From assembly GCF_947624825.1 (NCBI RefSeq), contig NZ_CANQLZ010000007.1, forward strand, positions 1 through 64,000: 64,000 nucleotides of DNA. Reading direction: 5' to 3'. The notes below the pieces were generated by a model. The model saw only the letters and a list, made by a program, of their open reading frames with translations. It ran no database searches and was not told the origin of the DNA. A program made the translations under genes and the position numbers. The stretch comes from an uncultured Acinetobacter sp. Lineage in GTDB: Bacteria; Pseudomonadota; Gammaproteobacteria; Pseudomonadales; Moraxellaceae. Of the stretch, positions 35,101 through 38,499 are shown piece after piece (the first letter of the stretch is position 1; every line of letters starts with the position of its first letter).

Positions 35101-35902
35101 AGACAGTCATCCAAGCGAGCAAAGTTTATCTTGGATTAAACGTAATTTCCCGATGGGCACATTGGCGGGTAACTTCTTACATGAAATCTTTGAACATATT
35201 GATTTTCAAGATCAAAGTGACTGGGGTTTAGAGCTACATCGACGTTTTAAAAACAGTTATCCAAGCCTATGGAAAGAATTAAAAGAAAAATATGTGGCAG
35301 AGTTTGAGCTGGTCAATGACGAGCACCTATATGCCATGTTGGGCGAGTGGTTAGCTGAGATTTTAAATACACCATTATTTGCCGATTTCTGTTTAAGTCA
35401 GTTAAGTGCAGATGCGCATATTGCCGAATTTCCATTTTATTTGGCGCTCGCCGATCGCATCTTTGGCGTGCAACGTATAAGTGATTTATTTCAAGAATAT
35501 GGCATTCATATGTTGCCACTCAATCACGCCAATTCAGCGCGTTATCTCACAGGTTCAATTGACTTGGTGTTTTATGATGGACAGCGCTATCACATTGCCG
35601 ACTATAAGAGTAACTTTTTAGGTCAAAATCAAGTTGACTATAGCAACGCCCATATTCAAGCCAATATGTCACAAGCAAGTTATTGGTTACAAGCAGGTTT
35701 GTATTTGGTGGCCTTGCATCGTTATTTAAGTGTGCAACTGCAAGACTACGACATCCACACCCATTTAGGTGGCGCAAGTTATTTGTATTTGCGTGGTATG
35801 AATGGGCAAACTGAGCAAGGTCTATATTATTTTAAACCTGAGGATGAATTTATTTTGCGTTTAGATGCATTGTTAGGTCGTATGCAAGGGGACACGCTAT
35901 GA
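32177..35902 (+). CDS. recB: Exodeoxyribonuclease V subunit beta RecB
   Basis: 1241 aa; SF1 helicase motifs (EASAGTGKTYTLSSL, LVDEFQDTNQDQ) plus C-terminal nuclease (GSIDLVFYDGQRYHIADYKSN); overlaps recC. Confidence 0.98.
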   Translation: MNSFCQIEPSYAPIVDMQFRGLHWIEASAGTGKTYTLSSLMVRVLLHDYLPHQVIATTFTRAAAAELKTRIRKRLQDTLHFLQPYQALSSTEILAQAQLEQDVLFQKILHDYADKIGYACERLKLVLDQFDELFVGTLDSFSQKLLTEFSFESGRIEHVAISDQAKQYTQQIIHDVLREWIQLQPQANIDFLLLKGILKAPLAYVDVVQKSLDFASAKMQTVKPQPLDTEVLSACLNQLASFTVEDLQELQAYYAGEFTSNFSAHVLEKPGKNLLQTFTVILPNLINTLKQNEPLTVFFNPQFQKQLKQIFNLFLDSKGLPRKSLFNKPSKTCSAEDQVAFLQHRVIQKLQELLLATQQFEQQLGAIDTQLKYFLTQEVKRRLPQRLQQQGETTFTQQMRSLSDALMGEQGQRFAQYVQSRYPLILVDEFQDTNQDQDNMLAQIWRNPKWYSQGCMIMVGDPKQAIYGFRGGDMLTYSKARQDVLAKHGKLYSLKYNQRSVPELVQVVDALFQQQTNFGEQVIYSPVEAGLRPHPICYEQGIANPKPLRFITLEDADQEPLQVAWQIRHLLNLSAQQQLYFQHKEQQQPLQADDIAVLSRNHDGLDKVQYELNRLNIRVNRASKRSVFDSSIAQDVGAILTAILHPFDEAKVKRALLSHLIGLQLNDLIAMQGQPEGLSRYMNDFEHIREMWLAKGFLTAWQYTLNIFAVWENLVRYQSRDNERLVVNLRHLTESLTQHSESYQGAQTLYTWYLKQIQSPGQRDWEMERSLSNTAGVQLMTVHQSKGLEFKIVFLLGASSAGREINKTLNFSTQVINHSETGQTEIQRVVAINDKHLLDTQAIAEHDARLEAEQHRLWYVALTRASHRVYAMLSKKLLDKAHGVLFWKNVGEGFCHAHCQDEPLLAECPIWIRPPQQIQTPVLHALDLPKQRFYPRSKTSFSALAQHLSRKQAMDVLAAQHEQHNNAADEIHVVADSHPSEQSLSWIKRNFPMGTLAGNFLHEIFEHIDFQDQSDWGLELHRRFKNSYPSLWKELKEKYVAEFELVNDEHLYAMLGEWLAEILNTPLFADFCLSQLSADAHIAEFPFYLALADRIFGVQRISDLFQEYGIHMLPLNHANSARYLTGSIDLVFYDGQRYHIADYKSNFLGQNQVDYSNAHIQANMSQASYWLQAGLYLVALHRYLSVQLQDYDIHTHLGGASYLYLRGMNGQTEQGLYYFKPEDEFILRLDALLGRMQGDTL

Positions 35903-37596
35903 ACATCAGCACTGACAACGACGTAGCATGGATGAAAGCATGGAGTGGCTATTTTGCAGATACATCACTTGAGGCACAAAAATTAATTCAAGAACTGTTG
36001 CTTGCTATGCAAAGTGGGCACAGTTGCTTGCAAGCTTTACCTGAACAAGTCAGTAGTTTAGGCACATTGGTGGCCGCACCACATGCAATTGCGCCGTTTA
36101 TTTATGATCAAAGTGACTTATATTTATATCGTTATTGGCAATTAGAACAACAATTGACCCAAGATGTTCAACGCTTAATTGAAGCGAAAGTCACCCAAGT
36201 GGCTGTTGCAGATGATCAAGAGCTATTAACTGATGTTCATCAAAAAGCGGCTTTACACGCCGTGGCACAGCAGGGTTTAAGCATCATTACCGGAGGTCCG
36301 GGTACAGGTAAAACCTACACTTTGGCACGTATTATTGCTGCTTTAAATCAAGCTTTACCCAACTTACGCATTGCTATGGCAGCACCTACAGGTAAAGCGG
36401 CACAGCGTATGAAAGAAGCTTTACAAAGTGCATTTAATGACCCAAAACTTGAGCATTTGGTTAGCGATGATTTAAAGCATTTACAACCGATTACTTTACA
36501 TCGTTTATTGGGCTTAGGCACACAACATAAACCGCGTTTTTCTGCCAAGCAGCCCTTGCCATTTGATGTGGTGGTGGTTGATGAAGCTTCCATGCTAGAT
36601 TTAAATTTAGCTGCTTTATTGTTTAACGCCATTGCCAATGGTACCCGCTTAATTTTATTGGGCGATGCACAGCAATTGGCATCCGTGGATGTAGGGTCAG
36701 TCTTGGCAGATTTACAGCAGGTAGAATGTCTAGATCAACATCGGGTGCATTTACATACCAGTCGTCGTTTTAAAGCGGGTGCAGCCATTGGTGAGTTGGC
36801 AGGTTTCATCCAAGCTCCACATATGCAAAATTCAGTGCTGCATGAGCTAGAACAGTTGATTGCAGCATCTACTTTACAAGCCATTGAACTGACAACACAC
36901 ATGAGCGATGTGGTACAGCTTGAATATCTGCCTGAGCATCTGCAAACACAGCAGTACCACAGCTATTATGATCGCTTAATGTTTGGGTTTAGTGGCTATG
37001 TGGCTGCATTACAGGCTTATTTAAGCAGCGATGGACCTGACACTTTATTGGCAGAAGTTTTAGCACGTTTTGACGACTATCGTATTTTAACGGCGATTCG
37101 TCATGGGCCTTTGGGTTTAAAACAGCTTAATCAGCAGATTGAAAAACGTTTATTGCAACAGTTGGCAAGCTATACCACTCAACAAGGTGATTGGTATGTC
37201 GGACGTGCGGTAATGATGACCTATAACGATTATCAACTTGTGCTGTCTAACGGTGATATTGGTGTATGTTTACAACGTTTTAAAGACGGGCAGTGGCAGT
37301 TTGAGGTGTATTTTCCAAGTTTAGAAAAATGGTTGCCGGCAGCACGTTTACCTAAAAATATTGAAACAGCTTTTGCTTTGACGATTCATAAATCGCAAGG
37401 TTCCGAATTTAAACACACCGCTGTGGTGTTAGATGGTGCTGCTGCCAACCTATTAAGCCAGGAATTGCTTTATACAGCGATTACCCGTGCTAAGTCGGTG
37501 GTGAGTATTTTAGCCGACCCAAAGAGCTTGCAGCAGGCCTTAACTGTAAAAACCACACGCCAAAGTGGTTTAAAAAATAAGCTAAAAACAACGTGA
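35899..37596 (+). CDS. recD: Exodeoxyribonuclease V subunit alpha RecD
   Basis: 565 aa; ITGGPGTGKTYTLARI, VVDEASMLDLNL, FALTIHKSQGSEF; overlaps recB. Confidence 0.98.
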   Translation: MNISTDNDVAWMKAWSGYFADTSLEAQKLIQELLLAMQSGHSCLQALPEQVSSLGTLVAAPHAIAPFIYDQSDLYLYRYWQLEQQLTQDVQRLIEAKVTQVAVADDQELLTDVHQKAALHAVAQQGLSIITGGPGTGKTYTLARIIAALNQALPNLRIAMAAPTGKAAQRMKEALQSAFNDPKLEHLVSDDLKHLQPITLHRLLGLGTQHKPRFSAKQPLPFDVVVVDEASMLDLNLAALLFNAIANGTRLILLGDAQQLASVDVGSVLADLQQVECLDQHRVHLHTSRRFKAGAAIGELAGFIQAPHMQNSVLHELEQLIAASTLQAIELTTHMSDVVQLEYLPEHLQTQQYHSYYDRLMFGFSGYVAALQAYLSSDGPDTLLAEVLARFDDYRILTAIRHGPLGLKQLNQQIEKRLLQQLASYTTQQGDWYVGRAVMMTYNDYQLVLSNGDIGVCLQRFKDGQWQFEVYFPSLEKWLPAARLPKNIETAFALTIHKSQGSEFKHTAVVLDGAAANLLSQELLYTAITRAKSVVSILADPKSLQQALTVKTTRQSGLKNKLKTT

Positions 37597-37654
37597 TTTT
37601 TTGATTGAATAGTCAAAAAATGAATTTTGTACGCCATGGCTTACAAAGATTCGA

Positions 37655-37847
37655 GAAATTGACGCATAGAGCTTTGCTGCACTTTCTGCGAATATAGCTT
37701 TAACAAAAGCTCAACACGGAATGTTGAGAATAATCGCACAATGATAACGATAAGCCGACATGGCAGCGAACTTACAGGAAAGTAAGTCACAGAGGAAACT
37801 TACAGCCGCTAAGCCTTGTAGTTTTGGGAGAGACTACAGGGCTTTTT
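37655..37847 (+). ncRNA. Candidate structured small RNA with GGA-loop hairpins (Csr/Rsm-like), ends at an intrinsic terminator
   Basis: No annotated CDS; hairpins CTCAACA-cGGAa-TGTTGAG (37710-37728) and ACTTAC-aGGAaa-GTAAGT (37770-37787), alternative GTAAGT-cacagaGGAa-ACTTAC (37782-37803), then a 10-bp terminator stem. 5' end not determined. Confidence 0.35.
37811..37847 (+). terminator. Strong intrinsic terminator
   Basis: GCCTTGTAGT-tttgggagag-ACTACAGGGC followed by TTTTTATTTTT. Confidence 0.88.
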
Positions 37848-38012
37848 ATTTTTAAAATGGCTACACATGACGTCATTCAAAATACATAAGATCCTAGGCA
37901 AAATACCCGCTAATTTCATCTTTTAACTGCACAGTACATAAATAAAGACAGCTAGTTTTTTAAAAATATTGCTAAGCCATATCCTTATAAAACCGAATGT
38001 TATTACAAATGC

Positions 38013-38044
38013 CTCAAGCCCAAGTTTAACTTGGGCTTCTTTGT
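38013..38044. terminator. Intrinsic terminator-like hairpin
   Basis: AAGCCCAAG-tttaa-CTTGGGCTT followed by cTTTGT. Confidence 0.65.
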
Positions 38045-38141: not shown

Positions 38142-38229
38142 AGCAGCCTTGCTGTAGTGATGCACGGCAGTCAATTTTTTAAATTGATTCATATCGAAAT
38201 TTTTTATAGAAGCATCTCGGAGAAATCGA

Positions 38230-38499
38230 ATGGCTTTAACAAACGCAGATCGCGCAGAGATCATCGCTAAATTTGCTCGTGCTGAAAATGACACTGGTTC
38301 TCCAGAAGTTCAAGTAGCACTTTTAACTGCTCAAATCAATGACTTACAAGGTCACTTTAAAGAGCACAAGCACGATCACCATAGCCGTCGCGGTCTTATC
38401 CGTATGGTTAACCAACGTCGTAAGCTTCTTGACTACCTTAAAGGTAAAGACGCTACTCGTTACAGCGATTTGATTGCTGCTTTAGGTTTACGTCGTTAA
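38230..38499 (+). CDS. rpsO: 30S ribosomal protein S15
   Basis: 89 aa; [50 protein letters not shown]. Confidence 0.99.

Follow-up and report, generated by a model that had tools for sequence, protein, structure and literature searches.

The window, a 64,000-nt stretch of contig sequence from an uncultured Acinetobacter sp., carries a small RNA gene (37696-37850, plus strand) between recD (35899-37596) and rpsO (38230-38499), two ORF calls on the same strand. The gene is delimited by our own covariance model, R1, built from an alignment (A1) of 39 recD-adjacent copies; R1 scores the window copy at 151.7 bits (E 4.9e-35), a value to be read in light of A1 containing this same sequence. The RNA, hereafter recD RNA, lies 100 nt past recD and has a terminator as its 3′ end. 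About 380 nt separate this terminator from rpsO, with a further terminator-like site in between at 38016-38038. We infer an RNA start near 37702 and thus a length of about 148 nt. A first-pass annotation of this DNA had described 37655-37847 as roughly 200 nt without a supported coding sequence, and the ORF list of the recD-rpsO gap agrees; the sequence elements that it described are all present at their positions. Its interval begins too far downstream to include the feature that says most about the locus, a GacA-type box at 37628-37645. Rfam scans at gathering and relaxed thresholds left the locus empty except for a weak S15 leader-like match upstream of rpsO (38144-38286; 34.8 bits, below the gathering score of 39.5).

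The box, a putative GacA operator, reads TGTACG-CCATGG-CTTACA, and its centre falls about 65 nt upstream of the RNA start. The GacA site of rsmY and rsmZ is TGTAAG-N6-CTTACA, located at -75 for rsmY in Pseudomonas aeruginosa (PMC4950607), and the rsmY box of P. fluorescens is TGTAAGCATTCTCTTACA (PMC4353343). With at most one mismatch to TGTAMG-N6-CKTACA, the box occurs in 50 of 51 recD-adjacent copies at a fixed distance from the terminator loop (194-204 nt), and its half-sites are 88% and 98% identical, compared with about 50% in the flank. The sister genus g10 has TGTGAG-N6-CTCACA in three of four genomes and TGTAAG-N6-CTCACA in the other; the former is a symmetric change, which fits a palindromic operator. 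A -10-like region (TTCTGCGAATAT here, tTTtTGaGA..AT in the family) follows at 37685-37696 on the plus strand, with a mean identity of 83%. No good -35 is recognisable near this block and a sigma-70 consensus scan returned no promoter at the expected place, so the promoter is a putative one.

The region is predicted to fold stably, with a z-score of -3.1 that was beaten by only 1 of 200 dinucleotide shuffles. Covariation, which the first-pass annotation had proposed to check, was assessed by counting pairs on A1: double-changed cells numbered 69, compared with 22.8 in shuffles, and exceeded all 500 shuffles and every slid control. Over the whole structure, 95.5% of cells are paired, compared with 36-51% when the structure is slid. 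In hairpin 1, CTCAACA-CGGAA-TGTTGAG (37710-37728, plus strand), each of the six pairs counted has compensatory changes, and 95.7% of cells are paired. Its loop GGA (37718-37720) is kept in 39/39 sequences while the stem and flanks change, and on this pattern of conservation we regard it as the candidate principal CsrA site. Hairpin 2, GCC-GACAT-GGC (37754-37764, plus strand), is small, with 79.4% of cells paired and double changes at three of four pairs. Hairpin 3, ACTTAC-AGGAAA-GTAAGT (37770-37787, plus strand; 94.9% of cells paired), is followed by CACAGAGGAA-ACTTAC, which runs to 37803. A second frequent GGA site is found in AGAGGAAACTTAC (37791-37803, plus strand), and AGAGGAAA is present in 29 of the 39 sequences. 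The RNA closes with an intrinsic terminator hairpin (37811-37844, plus strand; 100% of cells paired in A1), comprising 12-nt arms and a GGGAGA loop (GGA at 37827-37829), then a T tract; the hairpin, the GGGAG-containing loop and the T tract had been recognised before, with the arms put at 10 nt. The terminator loop, TTTGGGAGAGA, is invariant (39/39).

The loop GGAs of hairpin 1 and the terminator, each with a predicted unpaired probability near 1, are the only two that are invariant. In number the motif is ordinary: sequences carry 2-6 GGA, with a mean of 3.4 versus 2.8 in shuffles, and the four in the window copy are not above shuffles (P ~0.35). The case for GGA therefore rests on conservation and loop position. 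The loop GGA of hairpin 3 is lineage-specific, occurring in 7/39 sequences, and most have AGTGA. This bears on a switch between mutually exclusive GGA hairpins that the first-pass annotation had envisaged, in which the central GTAAGT pairs with either ACTTAC. The sequences for both pairings are indeed there, and the ACTTAC of AGAGGAAACTTAC can pair with 37782-37787 in an alternative helix with 92.6% of cells paired. Yet this helix is missing in the deepest lineages and is predicted to be slightly weaker (-3.9 versus -5.0 kcal/mol) and, with so few sequences holding a GGA in the hairpin 3 loop, a conserved switch is unsupported.

By blastn with 37597-37870 as the query, recD RNA was found in 117 of 119 Acinetobacter genomes; named species that have it include A. 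baumannii and A. baylyi. R1 matched it in the two that blastn had missed (E 9e-18 and 2e-8), so that all 119 genomes have the RNA; the copy with the weaker match is degenerate, being without the box and having only two GGA. When applied to 99 Moraxellaceae genomes, R1 matched all 19 of Acinetobacter and all four of g10, the latter weakly (E 3e-5 to 1e-4) and again directly after recD. This divergent homolog carries a GGTTGGGAAACC hairpin. A single match in g9, terminator-like and without GGA, is probably due to chance, and the other Moraxellaceae genera in this set gave no R1 match. recD adjoins the RNA in nearly all Acinetobacter and in g10. In A. baumannii the RNA and recD remain neighbours, with rpsO some 2 kb distant, which places the genomic linkage with recD. 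Two records of 220 kb in the phage collection, labelled Acinetobacter phage MD-2021a (CAKLQF020000005.1 and CAKLQH020000005.1), match recD RNA and possibly reflect host DNA in the assembly. An exact copy of the terminator 18-mer in WQSV01000169.1, a 3.6-kb contig of a Bacillota metagenome-assembled genome, is probably a binning contaminant.

In other bacteria, decoy RNAs under Gac control sequester CsrA, a global regulator. The genome studied here encodes CsrA, a GacA that is 48% identical to Escherichia coli UvrY (next best full-length match, 24%) and a BarA/GacS-like kinase of 946 amino acids. As GacA and CsrA are general across Moraxellaceae, including genera without an R1 match, the presence of these partners is permissive and not discriminating evidence. 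In A. baylyi, a phenotype of gacA or gacS loss requires csrA, as would be expected if GacA drives CsrA-sequestering RNAs; the authors postulate such RNAs, and the available part of their report names none (PMC12455638). CsrA of A. baumannii has been reported as essential on rich medium (PMC12802169), and GacA of this species controls virulence-related metabolism (PMC12070743).

An operator, a short noncoding RNA, selected loop GGAs and a terminator together make up the anatomy of a Gac/Rsm sponge. With a probability of roughly 0.75, we infer that recD RNA is a GacA-activated RNA of the RsmY/RsmZ type, a transcript that would be switched on by GacA binding and would bind and titrate CsrA. In this mechanism, the sensor kinase BarA/GacS would phosphorylate GacA, which would bind the palindrome at 37628-37645 and drive transcription from about 37702. 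The resulting RNA of about 148 nt would end at the terminator (37811-37850), and CsrA would be bound at the hairpin 1 loop GGA and the GGGAGA terminator loop, probably also at AGAGGAAA, and so be titrated away from its mRNA targets. recD RNA would be a lean version of such a sponge, in which two loop GGAs are invariant and a third site is frequent. The Csr/Rsm-type identity suggested by the first-pass annotation is supported by the conserved RNA gene, its box, the two loops and the csrA, gacA and barA-like genes; its mutually exclusive GGA hairpins are not supported as a functional device.

A second family shares the operator. Exact matches to TGTANG-N6-CTTACA occur at nine places in the genome of the window, compared with about two expected from a base-composition estimate; one belongs to recD RNA and six lie upstream of members of a CAGGA-rich multicopy family (contig 29:13658 and contigs 58, 62, 63, with two copies, and 85). 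We had considered the perfect-box locus on contig 29 as a single second Rsm RNA, and it proved to be one of these several copies. The family, with loops such as GGAACAGGAAGTTCC, GGTACGACAGGAGTTATACC and, within the terminator, CCCAACAGGATGTTGGG, has members in 53 of 60 Acinetobacter genomes, often more than one per genome. For 31 of 34 copies, the distance between box and anchor is fixed at 130-139 nt. R1 recognises these RNAs over their full length (E 2e-5 to 6e-3), which suggests that the family is probably a distant paralog of recD RNA. It looks more like classical RsmY/RsmZ than recD RNA does, and its match to Rfam RsmY is weak (14.6 bits, below threshold).

The CAGGA-rich family also matches 175 Acinetobacter records of a plasmid collection, a few of them misfiled chromosomes, and the four plasmid copies examined all have the box with at most one mismatch. 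One box-carrying copy resides on the 7.7-kb A. baumannii plasmid NZ_LN865144.1, and others are on further small Acinetobacter plasmids. Separately, a box-less variant of the recD RNA 3′ half is present on 42 plasmid records, with TTTAACATAATGG..GTTATGCGAAATT upstream, which we take to resemble a XerC/XerD (pdif) site. We tentatively propose, at somewhat less than even odds, that the Gac/Rsm RNA family of Acinetobacter is expanded and partly mobile, with a core recD gene, several CAGGA-rich copies per genome, many of them on small box-carrying plasmids, and a promoter-swapped plasmid variant of recD RNA. If so, mobile elements would carry decoys for the host CsrA, and the plasmid-borne relatives raise the question of whether plasmids tune it.

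Other functions can be envisaged for recD RNA. It could be a GacA-controlled sRNA that base-pairs with mRNAs (with Hfq) and does not titrate CsrA, using an invariant GCGAACTTACA stretch and the terminator loop as seeds. Stretches outside hairpin 1 are conserved as strongly as the GGA sites and GGA number is not enriched, both of which would suit such an sRNA; against it speak the hairpin 1 GGA, invariant within a varying stem and flanks, and the box-sharing paralogs full of CAGGA loops (for example CCCAACAGGATGTTGGG), and we consider it unlikely. A location on the same strand, 100 nt past recD and with a terminator at the end, is also what might be seen if the RNA were no more than the terminator and 3′ untranslated region of recD, or a fragment processed from its mRNA, with no function in trans. 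However, the operator and -10-like block intervene, conserved between recD and the RNA amid unconserved flanks; extra copies unlinked to recD, present in some genomes, mostly retain the box; and covariation is found in hairpins upstream of the terminator. We give this explanation very little weight. That the RNA serves as an rpsO leader or attenuator for S15 autoregulation is highly improbable: it does precede rpsO on the same strand, with the sub-threshold S15 leader match in the gap, but the strong terminator that closes it some 380 nt ahead of rpsO, the other terminator-like site and the distant rpsO of A. baumannii speak against it. A phage-derived antisense RNA of the C4 type, as in the largest A. 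baumannii sRNA group, is scarcely credible: A. baumannii does have families of sRNAs that are repeated and in part mobile (PMC5320573), but neither the locus nor the multicopy paralog matches C4 in Rfam, and genus-wide synteny with recD favours a core gene.

The CsrA-titrating reading would bear on a connection that, in the available part of PMC12455638, is so far only postulated, namely an RNA link between GacA and CsrA in Acinetobacter. recD RNA could be this missing link, and its genus-wide occurrence, operator, candidate binding sites and covariance model make it a specific candidate with which the link can be tested directly. A study from 2006 (Kulkarni 2006, as cited in PMC12442408 and PMC5568370) predicted RNAs regulating CsrA in A. 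baylyi ADP1, and two further loci, ACIAD0018/0019 and ACIAD2750/2751, were predicted in 2017 (PMC5568370). These share the genus and the proposed function of recD RNA; the 2017 loci are not described as recD-rpsO (PMC5568370). Our literature search found no paper naming a recD-rpsO RNA; the predictions of 2006 may already include this locus. A. baumannii AB5075 has families of repeated sRNAs (Weiss 2016, PMC5320573), likewise multicopy and structured, and the part of that paper available links none of its groups to CsrA or GacA. Judged by its description there and not by sequence, one AB5075 repeated group, perhaps the four-member Group 3, may be the CAGGA-rich family; the C4-like Group 1 was rejected as its counterpart, as Rfam gave no C4 match.

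Among known CsrA-binding RNAs, CsrB and CsrC of E. coli and its relatives resemble recD RNA in the role proposed for it, as an RNA controlled by UvrY/GacA that titrates CsrA, whereas recD RNA is much shorter, has 3-4 GGA sites instead of many and is without detectable similarity to them in Rfam scans. The Rfam search suggested by the first-pass annotation gave no match of the locus to RsmX, RsmY, RsmZ, CsrB or CsrC at the gathering threshold or at E<=5, and recD RNA is therefore not filed under any Rfam Csr/Rsm sequence family. RsmY, RsmZ and RsmW carry 7-8 GGA motifs (PMC4353343, PMC4950607). Compared with RsmX, RsmY and RsmZ of Pseudomonas, recD RNA has fewer such motifs, with its two invariant loop GGAs, lies outside the Rfam models, has one copy fixed beside recD and often has C at position 5 of its box (TGTACG); its terminator-loop GGA reads GGGAGA, unlike the classical ANGGA. 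With these Pseudomonas RNAs it nonetheless shares an upstream GacA-type palindrome, a noncoding RNA of about 120-150 nt, GGAs in hairpin loops, an intrinsic terminator, and a genome that also encodes CsrA/RsmA and GacA.
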